Positions 1,435 through 27,096 of a stretch of 27,096 nt of DNA are shown here, in pieces (within the stretch, counting starts at the first letter, position 1; each line of letters opens with the position of its first letter). A program made the translations under genes and the position numbers. This stretch comes from a virus. The stretch is taken from the IMG/VR virus record IMGVR_UViG_3300025732_000222, positions 1 to 27,096 of that record; one strand, given 5' to 3'. Under the pieces are notes generated by a model, which saw only the letters and a program-made list of their open reading frames with translations, was not told the DNA's origin and ran no database searches.

Positions 1435-2102
1435 TGAAATATTTCAGCTATTTCCCAAAACTAGTTTACACATTGGACAACAATGATGTTGAGTATAAAC
1501 AAGTAACGAACCTCCTAACGAGAGTTAGATTCGTTCGAGAAGTTTTACAGAATGTGAAAATATTCTATGAGTATGATTACTCGGACGCCGACAATCCAGA
1601 GATTATTGCCAAAAAACTTTATGACGATCCAAATAGATATTGGATGGTTCTGTTTGCGAATGACATGGCTGATCCATACTATGATGTTCCTCTGACAAAT
1701 GCAGATTTAGATTCTTACATCGTATACAAATATGGTTCTTTGGCTAATGCAAGTTCAGAAATACACCATTACGAAAGAAGAACCAAAATAGTCACAAATA
1801 AAGATGGCATTATTAATGAACATGAATACGTGGTAGAACTACAAGAACGATCATATGATTTTGAAACGAATACGATTGTGACAAACACATTACCAACATT
1901 GGCAAGTCCAATTGTAGTTAGCTCAGAAACAACTGAAGTCGCTAATGATGGTGTATCCATCACGACAACTGTTACAGATTATGCAATTAGTAAATATGAT
2001 CATGAAGTGAGCATCAACGAGGATAAACGAAAAATTAGACTTGTTCGTTCTGTTGGCGTGCAAGATATAGAAAGACAATTCAAATCACTGTTGCTTAGAT
2101 GA
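1434..2102 (+). CDS. 53: Baseplate wedge subunit gp53
   Basis: 222 aa, slightly longer than T4 gp53 (about 196 aa). The N-terminus is typical of the family: FSYFPKLVYTLD at residues 4-15, then a ligand-like stretch with DNPEIIAKKLYDDPNRYW and FANDMADPYYDVPL at about 53-90. The middle (about 110-185) is a variable beta-rich insert. The last 35 residues (YDHEVSINEDKRKIRLV and onward) are charged, as in other gp53 proteins. In T4, gp53 is the last wedge protein added and ties six wedges around the hub. It overlaps gp48 by one base and the next gene by four (ATGA). The gp4 - gp53 - gp5 neighbourhood resembles T4. Confidence 0.88.
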   Translation: MKYFSYFPKLVYTLDNNDVEYKQVTNLLTRVRFVREVLQNVKIFYEYDYSDADNPEIIAKKLYDDPNRYWMVLFANDMADPYYDVPLTNADLDSYIVYKYGSLANASSEIHHYERRTKIVTNKDGIINEHEYVVELQERSYDFETNTIVTNTLPTLASPIVVSSETTEVANDGVSITTTVTDYAISKYDHEVSINEDKRKIRLVRSVGVQDIERQFKSLLLR

Positions 2103-3382
2103 CAAAACAACTCTTATCAAGTAGCGATTATGAGATAAAGAATCTATCGTTGTATACAAGCGATGGAAATCAAATCGACATTCGAAATTTAGCATTACAA
2201 ATAGAAATATTTGAGGACATCTATTCTCCATGCATGACGTGTAAGATTCGAATTACTGATGGTCTTGATCTGGTGTCGATTCTGAAACTGCATGGAAATG
2301 AATATCTTGAACTCGAAATAGATAAACCGACGCTCGATGATCCGATAAAGAAAGTATTTCGACTGTATAAACTTTCAGATAGAGACTTCACAACAAACTA
2401 TCAGAACTACACATTACATTTTTGCAGTGAAGAATTCATTTTATCACCACAAATATTGATATCGAAATCATACAGAGGTCTCAAAGTCAGTGATATGATT
2501 AGAGATATTTTGGTATCAAAATTAAAAGTTCACAAAGACAAAATAAATCGAATACAACGAACTGACAAAGCGTATGATATAATCATCCCAAAAATGACTC
2601 CATTCGAAGCCATTAGTTGGCTGAGTAACAGAGCATATGCTAAGAATGAGAGTTTATTTTTCTTCTTTGAGAATAGAGATGGGTTCAATTTCGTTTCTTA
2701 CGAGAGCCTACTGAAAGAACAGCCTTATGCGAAATACAGAAAAGATTTTAAAGTAGATCCAAACGATGTTCTTAAGAATTTAGAATCATTCAACTATCTA
2801 AAAATTATGGAAGAATTTGACATAATGAGAGCGACAAGAGAAGGATCGTTCTCGTCGTCAACTGCAAGATTGAATTTAATTACTGGGAAATTTACAGTAG
2901 TTCCATTTAATGCATTTGAATTTAAGAATAAAGGTGTTCTGAATAAAGAAGTCACGATGAACCTTTTCCGAAATAGATTAGATAAAAGTTTCTATGATTC
3001 TTATGACAATATGATGAAATATTCTTTGACAACTGACAGCGATCAAACCAGAAATCAAATGTTACCTCAAGATTGGCTCTCGCAAACTGCGTCCAAGTTG
3101 GGTCAAATAAATTTATGCAAAATAAGAGCGACCGTACCAGGTGATGTTCTATTGAAAACGGGTCAAATTGTTGAAGTTGAATTGCCAGACATTATTCCAA
3201 AGAGTTCAGGAGTAGATATAAATGAAACTAGAAGTGGAAGATATTTGGTTTCAGCAGTTTGTCATAGATTTGAAAATCAGATTTATGCTACTGTATTAGA
3301 TCTAATCTCCGACAGTATCAATGAGTCAATGCCACCAGCGAATAATGAGTTAGAGAAACTTAGAGAGTTAGCAAAATTATGA
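2099..3382 (+). CDS. 27: Baseplate hub subunit (gp27-like)
   Basis: 427 aa, against 391 aa for T4 gp27, the trimeric hub ring that adapts the sixfold tail to the threefold spike. The sequence has the tail-hub layout: an N-terminal beta domain with FEDIYSPCMTCKIRITDG (about 38-55), LHFCSEEFILSP (about 105-116), an alpha/beta stretch beginning YRGLKVSDMIRDILVSKL, and FEAISWLSNRAYA. The C-terminal barrel includes GDVLLKTGQIVEVELPD and the usual near-terminal SGRYLVSAVCHRF. It sits directly before the spike gene and overlaps it by four bases (ATGA), as expected for proteins that form a gp5-gp27 complex. The role is inferred from domain pattern and synteny; sequence identity to T4 is low. Confidence 0.82.
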   Translation: MTKQLLSSSDYEIKNLSLYTSDGNQIDIRNLALQIEIFEDIYSPCMTCKIRITDGLDLVSILKLHGNEYLELEIDKPTLDDPIKKVFRLYKLSDRDFTTNYQNYTLHFCSEEFILSPQILISKSYRGLKVSDMIRDILVSKLKVHKDKINRIQRTDKAYDIIIPKMTPFEAISWLSNRAYAKNESLFFFFENRDGFNFVSYESLLKEQPYAKYRKDFKVDPNDVLKNLESFNYLKIMEEFDIMRATREGSFSSSTARLNLITGKFTVVPFNAFEFKNKGVLNKEVTMNLFRNRLDKSFYDSYDNMMKYSLTTDSDQTRNQMLPQDWLSQTASKLGQINLCKIRATVPGDVLLKTGQIVEVELPDIIPKSSGVDINETRSGRYLVSAVCHRFENQIYATVLDLISDSINESMPPANNELEKLRELAKL

Positions 3383-5301
3383 TGGATAAGAATTACGCAG
3401 GGTTGGATGGGTTCGTTTGGTGGATGGGCATTGTAGAATCCAGAAACGATCCATTAGAAATGAATCGTTGTCAAGTTAGAGTATATGGCTGGCACAGCCC
3501 AAGTCTTGGCGATATTCCTTCTGATGATCTGCCTTGGGCAGTCCCAATCAATGCGTTAAATGGTGGCGCCACTTCAATGGCAAAAGAAGGCGACATGGTT
3601 TTTGGTTTTTTTGCTGATGGTAGGAATGCTCAGGTTCCATTAATCCTCGGCATCGTTCCAACTTATGCAGTTGGTAAAAGTCCAGCTGATATTGGATTTG
3701 GTGATATTCGAGATGAAGCTAAACTTGCTGCAGCACCAAAGAAAGTAACAGCAAGATCTTACAGCCGCAGCGGTGGTGGATCTAAAATAACAGAAGAAAC
3801 ACCAGAAACGTATCCAAAGGAAAGAGACTTCAATAATCCAAGCGTCAGCGCTCTTGCCAGAAATAAACCAAATGAAACTCATGTTGTTACATCCAGAATA
3901 GAAAGAGGACCAATCACAATTCCCAGTTCTGGAAAAACGAAATACACAACCCCAGCACCATCATACAATCCAGTTTATCCATACAATAGAGCTACAGAAA
4001 CTGAATCGGGACACTCGTTTGAACTTGATGATACACCTGGTGCCGAAAGGGTTGAGTTGGCGCACAGATCTGGTACGATGTTTGAAATACAACCAAGCGG
4101 AACCAAAGTCGAAGAGATCGTCAAAGATAACTACACCATAGTCATGGCAGATGATTTTGTATATGTTATGGGTAAAGCGATTGTAAGCGTGGATAAAGAT
4201 TGCACGATTAAAGTTGCTGGCAATCTTAAGATTGACGTTGGTGGAGATTTTGAGTTGAAGGTTGCTGGTGAAAGCAAGATGTCTTCTGGTAAAGACTTTA
4301 AGGTTTCTTCTTCTGATGATGTTAAAGTTGATGCCAAAAAGAAAACGTCAATGAGTGGTGGAACTGAGGTCAGCGTTTCGTCCAAAGGAACTGCGTCATT
4401 AAGTGGAACATCTTCCACGCGTGTTTCATCAAGTGGTTCAATGGCAATCAGTGGAACATCAACTTCAATTACATCACAATCAACAATCAAAGCATCTAAG
4501 ATGGCTGTTGCTGGCAAAATTTCAGCAAGTGGTGTCGGATCAAGTGGTGGTGGATTCTCAATACCTGAACTTCCTGCAGTTCCAGCGCTCCCGACTGGTA
4601 TTGAAGATTTCGCAGCACTTATACCAGGTGCTTCTGAAATATTGGCTCAAGTTAACGAAGCAATGGCTCAAATTGAAGCTGCTGTTGGTGATCTGACTGC
4701 ATTAACTGATGTTCAATCTTTACTCGGTCAGCTAGATGTTGCTCAATTAGATACACTACTGGAAACTGCAACCAGTTTTGATGTTGGGAATATTGTCAGT
4801 TCTTTGGGTGGTGAATTTGGCATTACTTCTCTTGTTGGTGGAATTAGTCCGCTTGGTTTAGCATCAATGGTTAGTGGATTGACGCCTCTTTCTGCAAATA
4901 TGTTGACGGACAAATTGTTATCTGAAGTTGGACTTCCTGGCGCAGATGGTCTTATATCTCAATTTGTAGATAAATTACCCGTTGGAAAAATTAAAGACTT
5001 AGCCAATAATTTAGATTCTGGTAAATTGACCAGTCTTATTACGCAAGCAACTGGGAAAGATGTAGATAAACTTTTCAAAGGATTGGCTGAAGATAAGATA
5101 CGTGATACGTTAACATCACTCGCACCACCACAATTAAGATCTGTGATGTCTTCTTTGAGTGGCGATAACATTAACAAAGCGTTTGGATCTTTACCAGATG
5201 TAAACCTTGCAGATATCAAAAACAAGTTAGGATCGGAACTACAGAAAAAACTCACAGAGAAAGCGAGTCAAGTTTCTGGCTATCCTATCACCCTCATATA
5301 A
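3379..5301 (+). CDS. 5: Central tail spike gp5 (OB-fold plus beta-helix, no visible lysozyme)
   Basis: 640 aa. Residues 1-100 form a gp5/VgrG-like OB-fold (WWMGIVESRNDPLEMNRCQV, then GDMVFGFFADGRNAQVPLIL). Residues about 105-205 are a low-complexity linker where T4 gp5 carries its lysozyme; I see no lysozyme catalytic pattern. From about 205 (SGHSFELDDTPGAERVELAH) to about 385 runs a needle with roughly eight-residue repeats rich in Val, Ser, Gly and Lys, as in gp5C and VgrG spikes. Residues about 390-640 are an extra, helix-prone, Leu/Gly/Ala-rich extension. MetMet at the start gives two possible ATGs (3379, 3382); the first gives the 4-base overlap with the hub gene. The stop TAA lies inside the next late promoter. 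Confidence 0.85.
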   Translation: MMDKNYAGLDGFVWWMGIVESRNDPLEMNRCQVRVYGWHSPSLGDIPSDDLPWAVPINALNGGATSMAKEGDMVFGFFADGRNAQVPLILGIVPTYAVGKSPADIGFGDIRDEAKLAAAPKKVTARSYSRSGGGSKITEETPETYPKERDFNNPSVSALARNKPNETHVVTSRIERGPITIPSSGKTKYTTPAPSYNPVYPYNRATETESGHSFELDDTPGAERVELAHRSGTMFEIQPSGTKVEEIVKDNYTIVMADDFVYVMGKAIVSVDKDCTIKVAGNLKIDVGGDFELKVAGESKMSSGKDFKVSSSDDVKVDAKKKTSMSGGTEVSVSSKGTASLSGTSSTRVSSSGSMAISGTSTSITSQSTIKASKMAVAGKISASGVGSSGGGFSIPELPAVPALPTGIEDFAALIPGASEILAQVNEAMAQIEAAVGDLTALTDVQSLLGQLDVAQLDTLLETATSFDVGNIVSSLGGEFGITSLVGGISPLGLASMVSGLTPLSANMLTDKLLSEVGLPGADGLISQFVDKLPVGKIKDLANNLDSGKLTSLITQATGKDVDKLFKGLAEDKIRDTLTSLAPPQLRSVMSSLSGDNINKAFGSLPDVNLADIKNKLGSELQKKLTEKASQVSGYPITLI

Positions 5302-5329: not shown

Positions 5330-5722
5330 ATGGAAAATCAAGCTAGAATTTATAAAGATTTGGATCTGGCATTCACCAAACATCCAATAAAAAATGATGT
5401 AAACAGAAAAACTGGTTACAATGCCGTTATTCAATCAGTCAAGAATCTTGTGCTACTCTCGCACTATGAAAAACCATTTCACCCAGAAATTGGTGGCAAT
5501 GTTCGAAAGATGCTGTTCGAACCAATGGATCCAATTACAGCCAATATTATCGCTAAAGAGATTGAAGATGTGATAACAAACTTTGAGCCAAGGGTTCAAC
5601 TCAGAAGTATTGATGTTGTTGAAAATTTTGATAACAATGGTTATGATATTACCATAGAATTCTTTTTGTTAAATCTCCCAGAACCAATACAAACAACAAT
5701 ATTTCTAGAGAGACTACGATAA
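5330..5722 (+). CDS. 25: Baseplate wedge subunit gp25
   Basis: 130 aa, against 132 aa for T4 gp25. This is the compact wedge protein with a lysozyme-like fold and no known enzyme activity that joins wedge to sheath; its counterpart in type VI secretion is TssE. Family features: KDLDLAFTKHPIKNDV at residues 8-23, AVIQSVKNLVLLSHYEKPFH, and the signature FEPR at about 88-91 (NFEPRVQLRSIDV), the EPR loop conserved in gp25/TssE. Length, motif and position directly before gp6 all agree. It ends TAA and is followed without a gap by the gp6 ATG. Confidence 0.95.
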   Translation: MENQARIYKDLDLAFTKHPIKNDVNRKTGYNAVIQSVKNLVLLSHYEKPFHPEIGGNVRKMLFEPMDPITANIIAKEIEDVITNFEPRVQLRSIDVVENFDNNGYDITIEFFLLNLPEPIQTTIFLERLR

Positions 5723-18683: not shown

Positions 18684-18896
18684 ATGTTAGTCAAGGTAAA
18701 AGACAATGATGGTCTTGTTCGTGATATGCGAAACAATTCAATTTTGAATACCAATCCCAGCGCATTGAAAAAGCATGAAATGATTATGAAAGAAAAAGAA
18801 AACGCCAAAAAATTGGCTGATGAAGTTACAAAAATGAAGAGTGAAATGTCTGATATAAAGCAAATGCTGCAAATTCTAATCGATAGAGAGAAATAA
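18684..18896 (+). CDS. Small coiled-coil protein of the tail cluster
   Basis: 70 aa. The start MLVKVKDNDGLVRDMRNNSI, followed by LNTNPSAL, is a pattern I associate with small conserved proteins of T4-like marine phages. From about residue 29 to the end it is strongly charged with hydrophobics at heptad-like spacing (MKEKENAKKLADEVTKMKSE and onward to LIDREK), so a coiled coil is likely. It starts one base after the previous stop and its TAA overlaps the next ATG. Perhaps an assembly factor or connector for the fibre encoded next; the function is unknown. Confidence 0.75.
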   Translation: MLVKVKDNDGLVRDMRNNSILNTNPSALKKHEMIMKEKENAKKLADEVTKMKSEMSDIKQMLQILIDREK

Positions 18897-20638
18897 TGCC
18901 GACTCCAAATATTCCTCAGGTACAAACAGCGAATACATTCGATCAGTGGCGAATTTACACTAACAGTGCTGTTAATGCTGTTAATGAGCTAAGAAGTACA
19001 ACATATGAAAAAGAAGCTGGTCTTCTTTACCTTTCGAATACAGATATTTCTACAGCATTACTTGTAAGCGGAAACGCTCGCGTTGATAGGATATTTACTG
19101 CTGGGAATGTGATTGCTGGGAATATCAATACAGCATCTTTAATTGAAACCACGAACCTTACTGTTAGAAACAATGCAATATTTGGAAATATCAACACATC
19201 ATTTTTAATTGAAACTGGGAACCTTACTGTTAGAAATAATGCAACTTTTGGTAATATTAACGTAACTTCATTATTGTCTACAACGAATTTAACAGTTAGA
19301 AATAATGCAACTTTCGGTAATATCAATACATCAACTTTAATTGAAACTGCAAATCTTACGGTTAGAAATAACGCCACTTTCGCTAACATTAATGTTACTT
19401 CAAATACAACCACAGCAAATTTAATAGTATCTCGTGGGTTGTTTTTAAATGGCGCAAACCTCGCTCTTGATCTCGCAAATTCATCAAATACAGTATTGGT
19501 TTCTGCAAATAGTGGATCAATACAAAGTAGATCAAGATTAAATTTCATTAACACAGCGTCAGTTCAAGTTTCTGTAGCCGCAGGAACTTCAGGAAATGCT
19601 AATGTCAGTTTTACTGTCGTTGGTGGATTCGGCGCACAAGGTGCTGCTGGTGCTCAGGGAGCTGCTGGTGCTCAGGGATCAGCAGGAGCACAAGGAGCTC
19701 CTGGTTCAACTGCTGGCGTTCAAGGACCAGCAGGAGCACAAGGAGCCGCTGGTGCTCAAGGATCTGCTGGCGCTCAGGGATCAGCAGGCGCACAAGGGTC
19801 TGCTGGTAGCCAAGGAGCAGCTGGTGCTCAAGGTGCTGCTGGGGCACAAGGTGCTGCTGGGGCACAAGGAGCAGCTGGGGCACAAGGAGCAGCTGGTGCT
19901 CAAGGTGCTGCTGGTGCTCAAGGATCAGCAGGTGCACAAGGGTCTGCTGGTGCTCAAGGTGCTGCTGGTGCTCAAGGATCAGCAGGTGCACAAGGGTCTG
20001 CTGGTGCTCAGGGATCAGCGGGAGCACAAGGATCATCAGGTGCACAAGGGTCTGCTGGTGTTCAAGGATCAGCGGGAGCACAAGGATCATCAGGTGCACA
20101 AGGGTCTGCTGGTGCTCAGGGATCAGCGGGAGCACAAGGATCATCAGGTGCACAAGGGTCTGCTGGTGCTCAGGGATCAGCGGGAGCACAAGGTCCAGCT
20201 GGTGTCGGCGCACAAGGAACAAGTGTCAATTTTACTGTTGGTTCGTTGGGCGTAGGAACAGCAGCGTCAGGAACTACTGGTGAAATTCGAGCAACAAATG
20301 ATATCACCGCATACTATTCTTCAGACAGAAGGCTGAAGGAAAATATTCGTAAAATCGAAAACGCTCTAGAGTTAATAAAACAAATTAATGGCGTTAGATA
20401 CGACTGGAAAGATGAACATATTAAAGATCGTGGTGGCGAAGATGGCATTTTCGTTCGTAAAGAAGATGTTGGCGTTATCGCGCAAGAGCTACAGGCTATT
20501 TTACCAGAAATAGTCGCCGAACGTTCAGACGGAATCTTAGCTGTAAGATATGAGAAAATAGTTGCATTGCTCATCGAAGCCATTAAAGAACTTGATCAAA
20601 AGCATGATAATTTAGTGAAACATCTCAGGAGAATATAG
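18896..20638 (+). CDS. Collagen-like tail fibre with C-terminal S74 intramolecular chaperone
   Basis: 580 aa. Order: N-terminal region (1-80) that may attach to the baseplate; five 22-residue repeats (about 80-190, unit like NLTVRNNATFGNINTS); a shared fibre module (about 200-245, VSANSGS and FINTASVQVSV); a collagen-like stalk of Gly-Ala-Gln and Gly-Ser/Ala-Ala triplets (246-442); and a C-terminal Peptidase_S74 domain (about 465-580). The last begins SSDRRLKENIRKIENALELI, with Ser476 and Lys481 in the spacing of the endosialidase-type autocleavage dyad, and continues with GVIAQELQAILPEIV and RYEKIVALLIEAIKEL. Such domains help trimers fold and then cut themselves off. GAGAG precedes the ATG, which overlaps the previous stop. 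Confidence 0.92.
   Translation: MPTPNIPQVQTANTFDQWRIYTNSAVNAVNELRSTTYEKEAGLLYLSNTDISTALLVSGNARVDRIFTAGNVIAGNINTASLIETTNLTVRNNAIFGNINTSFLIETGNLTVRNNATFGNINVTSLLSTTNLTVRNNATFGNINTSTLIETANLTVRNNATFANINVTSNTTTANLIVSRGLFLNGANLALDLANSSNTVLVSANSGSIQSRSRLNFINTASVQVSVAAGTSGNANVSFTVVGGFGAQGAAGAQGAAGAQGSAGAQGAPGSTAGVQGPAGAQGAAGAQGSAGAQGSAGAQGSAGSQGAAGAQGAAGAQGAAGAQGAAGAQGAAGAQGAAGAQGSAGAQGSAGAQGAAGAQGSAGAQGSAGAQGSAGAQGSSGAQGSAGVQGSAGAQGSSGAQGSAGAQGSAGAQGSSGAQGSAGAQGSAGAQGPAGVGAQGTSVNFTVGSLGVGTAASGTTGEIRATNDITAYYSSDRRLKENIRKIENALELIKQINGVRYDWKDEHIKDRGGEDGIFVRKEDVGVIAQELQAILPEIVAERSDGILAVRYEKIVALLIEAIKELDQKHDNLVKHLRRI
19154..19460 (+). repeat. 66-bp tandem repeats (22 aa) in the S74 fibre
   Basis: Diverged in-frame repeats begin at 19154, 19220, 19286, 19352 and 19418, an exact 66-bp period. 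Each encodes a unit like NLTVRNNATFGNIN followed by a short variable piece (SFLIETG, VTSLLST, TSTLIET). The last copy is degenerate (NLIVSRGLFLNG). The regular spacing with alternating hydrophobics suggests a trimeric beta-helix or similar shaft. Confidence 0.85.
19904..20210 (+). repeat. 54-bp tandem repeats in the collagen-like tract
   Basis: Units of 54 bp (18 residues, six Gly-x-y triplets) start at 19904, 19958, 20012, 20066, 20120 and 20174 (last one partial). The first two copies are nearly identical to each other, and the next three are nearly identical to each other (GGATCAGCGGGAGCACAAGG at their start). The tract is visibly richer in G and C than the flanking DNA. Confidence 0.85.
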
Positions 20639-21617: not shown

Positions 21618-21953
21618 ATGGCTCAATTTATCGAACTGAACCTAGACCAAGGTGCAGATTTCAGCTTTGACATGACCATCACTAATGATGATGGAACTGC
21701 TAAAAATGTTGCTGGGTATACTTTTTCCTCTTCAATGAAGAAATCGTATTATTCAACAACCACAACTGCAAATTTAACATCAACGATTTTAAATTCTTCT
21801 AATGGTTTAGTTAGATTTGCAATAACTGCTGCAAATAATGCAACAATAAAAGCTGGTAGATATTTGTTTGATATAAAACAAGTAGACACATCAAATAATG
21901 TTAGTCGTATAGTTGAAGGATTGATTATTGTAAATCCGAGAATAACTGAATGA
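21618..21953 (+). CDS. Small beta-sandwich virion protein, marine T4-like type
   Basis: 111 aa. The pattern LNLDQGADFSFDMTITNDDG, then VAGYTFSSSMKKSYYSTT, a short variable loop, and KAGRYLFDIKQVD with VEGLIIVNPRITE at the end is one I recognise from small virion proteins encoded beside fibres in cyanophage-type T4-like phages. It reads as a complete Ig-like or similar beta-sandwich. It is the first gene after the late promoter at 21586 and overlaps the fibre gene by four bases (ATGA). That suggests coupled synthesis and perhaps a connector or base for that fibre. The exact function is unknown. Confidence 0.78.
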   Translation: MAQFIELNLDQGADFSFDMTITNDDGTAKNVAGYTFSSSMKKSYYSTTTTANLTSTILNSSNGLVRFAITAANNATIKAGRYLFDIKQVDTSNNVSRIVEGLIIVNPRITE

Positions 21954-23359
21954 CTGACATAAAAATCTCCAGTAATACTGGAGCGGTTAAAATTGTCAAT
22001 CAAGTTCGTGTGGCTGGTAACACTGGAAACATAAAAGTCACAAATACCCCTGCAAGTAAAATTTCACTCAATACAGGCAAAGGTGTTGATGGAATTGCTG
22101 GGGCACAAGGTGCTCAAGGAGCTAATGGCGCTCAGGGCAGTCAAGGTACAATCGGTGCTCAGGGAGCGATTGGCGCTCAGGGAGTTTCTGGTCCTCAAGG
22201 CACTCAAGGCGTTGCTGGCGCACAAGGATCTGCTGGTGCTCAGGGAGCCACTGGTATTCAGGGAGCGCAAGGAATTCAAGGTTCTGTTGGCGCACAAGGA
22301 TCTGCTGGTGCTCAGGGAGCCACTGGTATTCAGGGAGCGCAAGGAATTCAAGGTTCTGTTGGCGCACAAGGAGCCGCTGGTGTTCAAGGAACACAAGGCA
22401 TTCAAGGTGCACAAGGAGTTCAGGGTTCTGTTGGTGCACAAGGAGTCGCTGGTGTTCAGGGCGCGCAAGGAATTCAAGGTGCACAAGGAGTTCAGGGTTC
22501 TGTTGGTGCACAAGGTATTGATGGTGTTCAAGGAGCAGTTGGCGCACAAGGAGCCGCTGGTGTTCAAGGAACACAAGGCATTCAAGGTGCACAAGGAGTT
22601 CAGGGTTCTGTTGGTGCACAAGGTATTGATGGTGTTCAAGGAGCAGTTGGCGCACAAGGAGCCGAAGGAGTTCAAGGTGCACAAGGAGTTCAGGGTTCTG
22701 GAGCACAGGGACCACAAGGTGTGCAAGGCGCTCCAGGAACTGGATCTGGTGGTTTATCTTCAATTCTTGTTTCTGCCAACTCTGCTTTAACTGTAAATGC
22801 GAATGGTATTAATTTCGTCAACACATCTACTACAACAATTGCAGTTTCTTCTGGTGTTACTGGAAACGCGAACGTCTCAATTATCGCAAACACAGCATTG
22901 ATCAATGCAACAAATGACGTCGCTTCTACATTACTCTATCCTGTAATGGTACCAACACCAAATGCAGAATCAACAGCAAGAGTAACATCTTCGAAGTTGT
23001 ATTTCGACGCAAGCACTGGTACGATTTATGCAACAGCAAAGAGCTTCGATATTGAACATCCTAGCAAAGAAAATATGCGACTTCGCTATGGTTCGCTCGA
23101 AGGTCCAGAGAATGGAGTATACTTCAGAGGAAGAACTTCAGATTCTAAGATTGTTCTCCCTGATCATTGGACTAAATTGATCGATCCTGATTCAATTACA
23201 GTTCAATTGACGCCAATTGGAAGTTCAGCTATACTATCAGTCGATTATATCGATGGCGATACAATACATATTAACAAAGTAAATGGTTGTGAATATTATT
23301 TCATAATATTTGCAGAGAGAATCGATATTCCAAAGCTGACTATAGAATACAAAGAATAA
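21950..23359 (+). CDS. Collagen-like tail fibre protein (second)
   Basis: 469 aa. A short N-terminal beta region (1-43) leads into a collagen-like stalk of Gly-Ala-Gln / Gly-Val-Gln / Gly-Ile-Gln triplets (about 44-263). Then comes the shared fibre module (about 268-310, LVSANSAL, NGINFVNTSTTTIAVSS, GNANVSI), and a C-terminal domain (about 325-469) with FDIEHPSKENMRLRYGSLEG, GVYFRGRTSD and ITVQLTPIGS. That C-terminal domain is familiar from many tailed-phage structural proteins and has no S74 Ser-Lys motif, so this fibre is not of the self-cleaving type. It starts within the stop of the 111-aa gene. Probable trimer; receptor binding is an inference. Confidence 0.87.
   Translation: MTDIKISSNTGAVKIVNQVRVAGNTGNIKVTNTPASKISLNTGKGVDGIAGAQGAQGANGAQGSQGTIGAQGAIGAQGVSGPQGTQGVAGAQGSAGAQGATGIQGAQGIQGSVGAQGSAGAQGATGIQGAQGIQGSVGAQGAAGVQGTQGIQGAQGVQGSVGAQGVAGVQGAQGIQGAQGVQGSVGAQGIDGVQGAVGAQGAAGVQGTQGIQGAQGVQGSVGAQGIDGVQGAVGAQGAEGVQGAQGVQGSGAQGPQGVQGAPGTGSGGLSSILVSANSALTVNANGINFVNTSTTTIAVSSGVTGNANVSIIANTALINATNDVASTLLYPVMVPTPNAESTARVTSSKLYFDASTGTIYATAKSFDIEHPSKENMRLRYGSLEGPENGVYFRGRTSDSKIVLPDHWTKLIDPDSITVQLTPIGSSAILSVDYIDGDTIHINKVNGCEYYFIIFAERIDIPKLTIEYKE
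22216..22372 (+). repeat. 72-bp tandem duplication in the second collagen tract
   Basis: Bases 22216-22300 are repeated identically at 22288-22372 (offset 72 bp, 85 bp identical, so the copies overlap). The unit encodes eight Gly-x-y triplets and stays in frame. Confidence 0.85.
22358..22664 (+). repeat. Long direct repeats at 180-bp and 108-bp offsets
   Basis: Bases 22358-22443 (86 bp) recur identically at 22538-22623 (offset 180). Bases 22472-22556 (85 bp) recur identically at 22580-22664 (offset 108). Both offsets are whole numbers of Gly-x-y triplets (20 and 12), as expected for recent in-frame duplication within a collagen-like tract. Confidence 0.85.
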
Positions 23360-25031: not shown

Positions 25032-27096
25032 ATGGCAAACACATATAAAAATATTATTATAACACCAAACATTAATGCGGTTGATGGAACTGATCCGACT
25101 ATTGCATTTCGAGGCGCAAACACAAGCGTCAATACTGAAATTGTTTTGAAAGTTTACCCAGATTCGAATGGTACACTTTCTTATGAAGGTTCTGCTGGTC
25201 AATTACATTCAATTACAAATGATCTAACTGGAACAATATTTTCAGTCAACGATGTTTCTGGAATTCCTTCAATTGAAGTTCAAGCGAACGGAATAATCAA
25301 TTTAGCAAGGTTTGGTGGCGCTAATGTTAATGTTCATATCGGTAATGTTTCCATTAACGATGGACAAAGCGTTCTTCAAGTCAGAGGTGCAGCGAACGTT
25401 GATTATCTCAGACTTCAATCATATGGAAATGTAATCGCATCGAATGGTGCTTGGCTTGGTTTGCCGATAAGAACTTTAATTTCAGCTAATTCTGGTTCAA
25501 CAATTTCCGCCAATGGTGTTAATTTTGTTAACACATCCACATTAACAGTTTCGGTGACATCTGGCATTAATGGTAATGCCAATATTGAATTTACAGTCGT
25601 TGGTGGTGGTGGAAGTGGTGCGCAAGGATCTCCAGGCGCTCAAGGTGATGTTGGCGCACAAGGAGCAACAGGAGCGCAAGGATCTCCAGGAGCTCAAGGT
25701 GATGTTGGCGCACAAGGAGCAACAGGAGCGCAAGGATCAGCTGGTGCTCAGGGTTCAGCAGGTGCTCAAGGTGCTGCTGGTGCCCAAGGAACAGCTGGGG
25801 CGCAGGGATCAGTAGGCGCTCAGGGAACAACAGGAGCACAAGGATCAGCTGGTGCTCAGGGTTCAACAGGCGCTCAAGGTGCTGTTGGTATTCAGGGCGC
25901 GCAAGGTGTTCAAGGATCTGTAGGCGTACAGGGCGCTCAAGGTCCATTCGGCGCATCTTTCTCAGTAGACACTGGAGAACCTCTTGGTATTGTAAACAAA
26001 GCTGATTCTACGATTGGATTTACAAATTCCTCAAGAGAATTCAGAATCACGCCTGTATCTGGTTCTTATGAGATTTATTCTCGAGGAATTAAGTATACAA
26101 TTTCAAACGAAAGAACCGTAACTCTTCCAAACACTAGTGGATTGTATTACATCTATTTCGATACAACAGCAACTCTTCAATACAAAACTACATTCTTTGA
26201 TTGGCCAAATGATTGTATGGTTGCTTATGTGTATTGGAATGCGGATACTGGAACCGCACCATTCGTTGCTGATGAACGTCATGGAATTGTATTAGATTGG
26301 CAAACGCACGAATATTTGCATCGCACGCGTGGGGCTGCGATTGCTAATGGGTTTAATGTCAATAATTATATTCTGAATGGTGATGGATCTTCAAACACTC
26401 ACATGCAATTAGATATTATTGATGGGACGTTCTTTGACGAAGATCTACAGGTAGACATTACACATAGTAATACACCAACTGCAAATACTTGGGAACAGGA
26501 CATCCAAGGTCCTGCTAGAATTCCAATATTCTACTTGAGTGGAACTCATTGGGTGATTGACTCTCCAACTGATTATCCAATTAAAATTAGCGCAACCCCA
26601 TTCCCAGTTTACAACCAAAATGTAGCTGGAAGCTGGACAACAACTGATATTGGAAATAACAAATTTGGTGTTACATTCATTGTTGCGACAAATAATATTA
26701 ATTATCCTATAATTGGTCTCATTGGACAAGAGAACCACGCAAATGAAAATGATGCTGTCAATTATAGTTTTGCTGATTTACAATTACCAGATTTACCAAT
26801 TGTAGAGTTCAGACTTCTATACAAACTCATCTATGATTGTAAAGCGAGTTATACAAATTATCCAAGAGCAAGTTTAAAATATGTAACTGACATTCGTGGA
26901 TTCACTTCAGTTCTTGCTGTTGCTGCTGGAAGTGCAGGAGCTCCTGGCGCTCAAGGCGCTCAAGGTGTTCAAGGTGCTGTTGGAACACAAGGAGCCGCTG
27001 GTGCTCAGGGATCTGCTGGTGCTCAAGGATCATCAGGAGCACAAGGAGCCGCTGGTGCTCAGGGATCTGCTGGTGCTCAAGGATCATCAGGAGCAC
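25032..27096 (+). CDS. Collagen-like tail fibre protein (third, partial, 3' end off the right edge)
   Basis: An open frame of 688 codons from the ATG at 25032 (MANTYKNIIITPNINAVDGT) to the window edge. Order: N-terminal beta region (1-150); shared fibre module (about 153-195, LISANSGS, NGVNFVNTSTLTVSVTSG, GNANIEF); first collagen-like tract (about 197-306); a globular beta-rich domain (about 307-630) with SGLYYIYFDTTATLQYKTTF and DERHGIVLDWQTHEYLH; then a second collagen-like tract (about 636 to the edge). I do not recognise the globular domain by name. No S74 motif is seen in the visible part; the C-terminus is outside. It is the first gene after the late promoter at 24997. Host recognition is likely but inferred. 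Confidence 0.85.
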   Translation, partial: MANTYKNIIITPNINAVDGTDPTIAFRGANTSVNTEIVLKVYPDSNGTLSYEGSAGQLHSITNDLTGTIFSVNDVSGIPSIEVQANGIINLARFGGANVNVHIGNVSINDGQSVLQVRGAANVDYLRLQSYGNVIASNGAWLGLPIRTLISANSGSTISANGVNFVNTSTLTVSVTSGINGNANIEFTVVGGGGSGAQGSPGAQGDVGAQGATGAQGSPGAQGDVGAQGATGAQGSAGAQGSAGAQGAAGAQGTAGAQGSVGAQGTTGAQGSAGAQGSTGAQGAVGIQGAQGVQGSVGVQGAQGPFGASFSVDTGEPLGIVNKADSTIGFTNSSREFRITPVSGSYEIYSRGIKYTISNERTVTLPNTSGLYYIYFDTTATLQYKTTFFDWPNDCMVAYVYWNADTGTAPFVADERHGIVLDWQTHEYLHRTRGAAIANGFNVNNYILNGDGSSNTHMQLDIIDGTFFDEDLQVDITHSNTPTANTWEQDIQGPARIPIFYLSGTHWVIDSPTDYPIKISATPFPVYNQNVAGSWTTTDIGNNKFGVTFIVATNNINYPIIGLIGQENHANENDAVNYSFADLQLPDLPIVEFRLLYKLIYDCKASYTNYPRASLKYVTDIRGFTSVLAVAAGSAGAPGAQGAQGVQGAVGTQGAAGAQGSAGAQGSSGAQGAAGAQGSAGAQGSSGA
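25620..25738 (+). repeat. 54-bp tandem repeat in the third fibre, first tract
   Basis: The unit at 25620-25673 is repeated almost identically at 25674-25727, with a partial third copy to 25738. The unit encodes six Gly-x-y triplets (GAQGSPGAQGDV and onward). The period equals that of the tracts at 19904 and 26994. Confidence 0.85.
26994..27096 (+). repeat. 54-bp tandem repeat in the third fibre, second tract (runs off the edge)
   Basis: The unit starting at 26994 (GCCGCTGGTGCTCAGGGATC) recurs at 27048 with no difference seen up to the window end. The array may continue outside. It encodes GAQGSAGAQGSSGAQGAA-type triplets. Confidence 0.8.

Follow-up and report, generated by a model that had tools for sequence, protein, structure and literature searches.

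The gp5 spike protein of the virus fragment described here, like that of a small group of other uncultured T4-like viruses, has helical repeats past its needle, a position taken in its closest relatives by a wall-cutting enzyme, which suggests that the tip of the spike has changed jobs, seemingly exchanging cutting for another task such as, perhaps, gripping or capping. The stretch of DNA analysed (hereafter the window) comprises an entire IMG/VR virus record, 27,096 bases long, and its gene content is that of a fragment of a T4-like virus. Within it, an open reading frame of 640 amino acids at positions 3379-5301 is identified as a gp5-type baseplate central spike gene by its matches to PHROG 430 (E 2.6e-67) and PHROG 694 (E 2.1e-34) and by the order of the surrounding genes, which runs gp48 (gp48-like), gp53, gp27-like, gp5, gp25 and gp6. 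More specifically, the gene is preceded by that of a gp27-like hub protein (2099-3382; PHROG 350, E 5.7e-83) and is directly followed by that of the gp25 wedge protein (5330-5722; PF04965), with no PAAR gene between. These three genes, and all parts of gp5 located below, lie on the plus strand. The surroundings of gp5 are those of a T4-type baseplate hub, a phage baseplate locus rather than a type VI secretion locus.

The N-terminal part of the protein has the OB domain and needle of a T4-type spike. The OB domain (residues 1-117, window 3379-3729) matches PHROG 694 over residues 3-117 and the Pfam model Gp5_OB at 17.0 bits, under the cut-off of 25. The beta-helix needle (approximately residues 205-392, window 3991-4554) is matched by PHROG 430 over residues 168-378 and by Gp5_trimer_C at 23 bits, which is likewise below cut-off; a motif scan finds it to be without a RIDLN-type end motif. 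Chains of T4 gp5 in the PDB align to this needle, and the matches to these chains and to 9f4a range in E from 4e-26 to 4e-28. Between the two domains, at the place of the lysozyme in T4 gp5, lies a linker (residues 105-205, window 3691-3993) in which no enzyme was detected. The initial annotation had already regarded the spike as lacking a lysozyme at this position, and the search of residues 105-205, in which a lysozyme fold would by that annotation have refuted this view, likewise detected none. No Pfam family matched residues 105-214, and neither Pfam nor the GH24 and M15 HMMs built for this study gave a hit between OB domain and needle; a hidden lysozyme at residues 105-205 is rejected on these grounds. 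The same annotation was mistaken in calling the linker low-complexity, since the linker section of PHROG 430 aligns with it (E 2.4e-5), as is expected for a gp5 without an internal lysozyme. Short gp5 proteins also occur in cultured marine relatives, namely Mosig (361 aa) and HTVC008M (350 aa). By eye, the gp5 of cyanophage P-SSM7 (L013, 4962-7514) has a long Leu- and Ala-rich, helical-looking stretch between OB domain and needle, at the place of the T4 lysozyme. In sum of likenesses, the window gp5 shares with the tail-associated lysozyme of T4 its OB domain, its needle and its gp27-like, gp25, gp6, gp53 and gp48 neighbours; it differs in having no detected lysozyme between OB domain and needle, a predicted alpha-solenoid after the needle and no adjacent PAAR gene.

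Approximately 246 residues extend beyond the needle (residues 395-640, within the region first noted at residues 390-640, window 4546-5301), and the composition of the extension is 16% Leu with 9% each of Ala, Gly and Ser. A Pro-rich hinge, IPELPAVPALPTG, comes first (residues 395-407, window 4561-4599); it is evident in the translation, is of low pLDDT in the structural models and confirms an earlier reading of this segment. The remainder had been described as a helical extension of about 240 residues; a helical domain after the needle is indeed predicted, but its helices are short and recur every 12 residues, and the long helices considered at first are replaced in the AF2 models by these 12-residue units. 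The repeat is clearest in residues 480-628 (window 4816-5262), where self-similarity at an offset of 12 reaches a z of 7.3, a value attained by 0 of 1000 shuffles, while at offsets of 11 and 13 it stays at background. Of the five models from a first AF2 run on an alignment of 9 sequences, one was good and the other four stood at pLDDT 45-54; after the remote homologue L036 was added to make 10 sequences, all five models agreed (mean pLDDT 76-77, pTM 0.74). In these models about 15 short helices are predicted for the extension, with helices at model residues 46-240; the blocks of model residues 91 to 230 have pLDDT of 86 or more except for one (83), and prediction is poor for roughly the first 50 residues of the extension. 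With good confidence, the extension is thus predicted to be a helical repeat, an alpha-solenoid of 12-residue helix-turn units (residues 443-633, window 4705-5277). It ends in a GYPITLI tail (window 5278-5298), of which YP[IV] is kept in alignments of the window clade and not in L036. Across 9 full sequences the extension is free of His, Cys and Trp, and none of its Glu residues is invariant; its invariant polar residues are Q446, D458, D468, S490, S515, K532, K549 and K564.

The position of this domain is less unusual than its content. The initial annotation had found the extension hard to explain, but a domain after the needle is, by comparison with related spikes, not an oddity in itself. 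Related loci were collected by their OB region (the best 80 of 120 confirmed relatives), and their gp5 sequences, 81 in number, bear GH24 tails in 9 cases, M15-like tails in 29 (4 of them cut) and helical tails in 8, the remainder having no detected domain, other tails or a cut end; because these loci are the best of longer scans, such counts are not population frequencies. The three GH24 tails tested have strong Pfam matches (E 3e-26 to 3e-40). The M15-like tails were assigned from weak Pfam hits together with an HMM built for this study and the motifs H-x-x-G-x-A-x-D and W-[ILM]-H, which we take to be marks of M15. A second scan, by gp6, from which the best 80 of at least 596 relatives were taken, brought in further post-needle matches, GH19-, NlpC/P60- and CHAP-like, among which only CHAP in L147 passed the Pfam cut-off. 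In Klebsiella phage RaK2 the lysozyme of gp078 is reported to be located after the beta-helix (PMC3622015). Thus the place after the needle is already a known position for wall enzymes, and what differs here is its occupant. On the sequences compared, it appears to be a swappable slot, often holding a peptidoglycan enzyme, or nothing, and in the window clade a helical repeat. Since wall enzymes sit past the needle in relatives, the lysozyme of the window spike is not merely gone from its T4 place; the slot is differently occupied. The GH24 and M15-like spikes of IMG/VR contigs, like RaK2 gp078, agree with the window gp5 in the position of the domain and in gene order, and include its closest backbone relatives; they differ from it in that its slot is filled by helical repeats, in which the GH24 and M15 HMMs found no match.

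Other helical-looking regions occur near this slot. In L083 (641-3481), L086-L089 and L091-L093, gp5 is 947-949 aa long and has about 430 mostly helical-looking residues between the needle and a C-terminal M15-like domain. The gp5 proteins of L110, L111, L112, L113 and L120 have helical-looking tails after the needle with K-x-x-YP-x-T near their end, the terminal motif of the window clade being YP[IV]; Pfam gave no enzyme match in those tested, and the helical-domain HMM gave no hit, so that homology is not supported. The gene after gp5 in phiM12 (L009, 7617-9179), annotated as having a Peptidase M15 domain, also has a long helical-looking region.

The phylogenetic distribution of the helical domain is narrow. 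It was found in the window and in 10 further IMG/VR records (L002, L003, L004, L005, L006, which is cut, L007, L018, L022, L023 and L036), the most remote being L036, with 27% identity over the domain and 83 bits by an HMM built without it. None was seen elsewhere among the 6,182 ORFs of the collected loci. Searches of 50,697 phage records by tblastn (E<=1), with the window extension and with the extension and tail of L036, returned nothing, nor did a phmmer search of PDB sequences with the window extension (E<=10), and a scan of genome contigs with an extension profile gave 46 pattern matches and 0 relatives. Among the matches listed in open-licence papers, no published description of this domain was recognised. 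A common gp5 domain of known fold, which the initial annotation had named as a possible refutation, was not found to match the extension.

Resemblances of the predicted fold are of middling strength and general in kind. The solved folds nearest to the predicted solenoid are the cytosolic domains of MgtE and armadillo-type proteins, which tie at Z of about 8-9.5, and the arrangement is a common one for helical repeats; in two comparisons, the match to 8gpv has Z 9.5 with rmsd 4.0 over 125 residues and Z 8.8 with rmsd 3.8 over 123 residues. The Pfam family MgtE_N (PF03448) scores 23.7 bits on the window extension, under the gathering cut-off of 25.9, and 28.9 bits on L036, above it. The extension may share with the N-terminal domain of MgtE a superhelix of short helices in 12-residue units; unlike that domain, the extension is below the Pfam cut-off in the window, the window gp5 matches no CBS or MgtE channel family of Pfam, and armadillo proteins fit equally well. 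Foldseek comparison of the extension models with PDB and BFVD gave no match at E<=1e-3; the top BFVD rows, above that value, are uncharacterised proteins of uncultured Caudovirales. The likeness to MgtE-N and armadillo folds shows no function.

The evolutionary history of the slot was examined on a tree of gp5 cores from which the tails were left out. A pool of 179 gp5-like ORFs, copies included, yielded 68 different sequences of adequate coverage with a core score of 250 bits or more, which were thinned to 63. The six helical sequences group as a single clade (100/92). L030, which has an M15 tail, is sister to it (100/97 for both together); the next clade out consists of 11 GH24 sequences and one without a domain. 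Over the whole tree the tail labels change 14 times, against a possible minimum of 5. Because the helical clade is nested among enzyme-bearing spikes, the direction of change would be from enzyme to solenoid, and the simplest reading of the tree is that a solenoid replaced an enzyme, once.

Between close pairs, dN/dS is 0.07-0.16 in the extension and 0.03-0.12 in OB domain and needle. These values, together with the 12-residue repeat, rule out a chance reading frame or an unselected tail. At core identities of 0.7-0.8 the tails retain an identity of 0.43 in the helical group (n=4 pairs), while those of GH24 type retain 0.78 (n=7) and those of M15 type 0.69 (n=21), in samples of pairs that are small and related. 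By these sequence comparisons the extension is under purifying selection and yet far outpaces the spike core in divergence, which enzyme tails do not. Its want of His, Cys, Trp and invariant Glu, taken with this fast divergence, makes any of the known wall-enzyme chemistries less likely and favours a role in structure or binding in which the contacts change.

The end of the needle also differs from that of many relatives. Among 63 gp5 genes with room for the comparison, 17 have both a RIDLN-like needle end, as this motif is defined in the present survey, and a PAAR gene within 3 kb of gp5, while 5 have the motif only (two of them, L083 and L093, by a weak mid-needle motif retained in the count), 3 have PAAR only and 38 have neither; the Fisher p of 2e-8 for this association overstates independence because sequences within a class are related. 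The motif and an adjacent PAAR gene occur together in L045-L053, L050, L060-L072, L090 and L098, which makes the motif a possible sequence signature of PAAR capping. In the helical group, by comparison, a RIDLN-type end was absent from 5 of 5 and a PAAR gene within 3 kb from 5 of 5, and gp5 is directly followed by gp25 in the window clade and in L036. No PAAR was found in the nine helical-clade records searched (the L023 record being left out), all of which, like the other records of the clade, are genome fragments, so that PAAR or lysozyme genes may lie elsewhere in the genomes; a phmmer survey found no PAAR match at the L023 locus. Nor was PAAR found in G011 (179 kb) and G018 (177 kb), which are long relatives whose spikes have enzyme tails, and its absence is therefore common to sister groups and not specific to the solenoid. 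Among the families listed (25 of 27) for 45 ORFs drawn from the window and from three related records there is no peptidoglycan hydrolase, and no hydrolase gene adjoins gp5.

A study of T4 and PpiD reports that the tube is preceded into the periplasm by the hub with gp5 and gp5.4, and that a fragment of the spike tip binds periplasmic PpiD weakly (PMC7600766). By homology with T4, three solenoids per virion would arrive first in the periplasm. In the mechanism proposed, the three solenoids would hang from the tip of a trimeric needle by the Pro-rich hinge, would reach the periplasm first upon tail contraction and would there bind a partner, either a host protein of the periplasm or inner membrane or some other component of the virion, instead of cutting the wall. 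As neither a PAAR gene nor a PAAR-docking needle end was detected, the solenoids would most likely form or shield the tip themselves; the earlier suggestion that the extension could replace the tip fits the lack of a PAAR gene beside gp5. We infer that a trimer-borne, non-enzymatic tip module replaced the enzyme after the needle, perhaps along with the PAAR cap, and that docking or capping in the periplasm is its most likely role, a reading to which we give about an even chance. A contractile phage without a spike enzyme may be viable, judging by phiCD508, which is reported to be apparently without enzymatic domains (PMC11948020). More speculatively, loss of the enzyme would also evade a block of the kind exerted by Spackle, which in T4 is reported to block gp5 lysozyme in superinfection exclusion (PMC7677548).

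The alternative rated next, though improbable, is that the solenoid is a spacer or adaptor, serving as a neck for a separate wall-cutting protein, which may dock on it, or for an enzyme that was formerly fused. The helical-looking residues that precede the M15 domain in L083 and L091 are consistent with such a neck, and the YP[IV] tail of the window clade could be a docking strand. However, the helical-domain HMM finds no significant match to helices of the L083 type (full E 1.4 for L083 and 0.55 for L091), what L036 has in addition is more helix and not an enzyme, and the neighbourhood of gp5 lacks a hydrolase gene. It is somewhat less probable again that the extension is a folding or packing device without host contact, aiding trimerisation of the needle or folding back upon it. 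The helical domain does adjoin the needle end, and C-terminal trimerisation or chaperone domains are known from other phage fibres (PMC5380687), but many related needles do without such a domain (12 of the 63 on the tree are labelled as having none), and fast divergence would be unexpected for a surface packed on a conserved needle. Insertion of hydrophobic, Gly-rich segments into the host membrane, opening a way for the DNA, is decidedly unlikely: the window residues FGITSLVGGISPLGLASMV have a mean hydropathy of 1.53 over 19 residues, and values of up to 1.67 occur elsewhere in the clade, but AF2 makes these segments short helices of the solenoid (block pLDDT 82-93), and L036 has no hydropathy peak (1.02 at most). 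A new type of hydrolase outside all known folds, suggested by the frequent occupation of the slot by peptidoglycan enzymes, is very improbable given the residues missing from the extension and a divergence much faster than that of enzyme tails.

In the evolved VgrG spikes of type VI secretion, an additional C-terminal domain is fused past the needle. The window gp5 likewise has an extra C-terminal domain in that place; it differs in belonging to a phage baseplate, in that its domain is apparently non-enzymatic and in showing no sign of a toxin. A wider proposal, which we advance tentatively and consider less probable than the docking or capping role, is that the gp5 needle end of T4-like viruses is a general cargo slot, exchanged between wall enzymes and modules of other kinds like that of evolved VgrG spikes; here a fast-evolving, non-enzymatic alpha-solenoid would bind a periplasmic or inner-membrane host factor, take over the tip from PAAR and permit infection without a spike lysozyme. 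If the slot is modular in this way, phage spikes would have a natural cargo position parallel to that of evolved VgrG. A natural exchange of the spike enzyme for a defined non-enzymatic module, which can be compared with sister spikes that have an enzyme, makes the non-cutting duties of the leading end testable; the route of contractile phages from outer to inner membrane is poorly understood, as the T4 PpiD paper itself remarks (PMC7600766).

Several features of other genes in these records may be noted. Long collagen-like Gly-Ala-Gln-Gly repeats are present in three tail genes of the window (18896-20638, 21950-23359 and 25032-27096), and a relative of the first of these (L104, 3661-5115) matches Collagen and the S74 chaperone family. 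Among tail fibre genes, 2OG-Fe(II) oxygenases are matched by 5 of the 45 ORFs that come from the window together with records G001, G002 and G007, and glycosyltransferases by some. In record G002, a gene for a PagL-like outer-membrane beta-barrel (L105, 3492-3986, minus strand) lies near a tape-measure-like gene.
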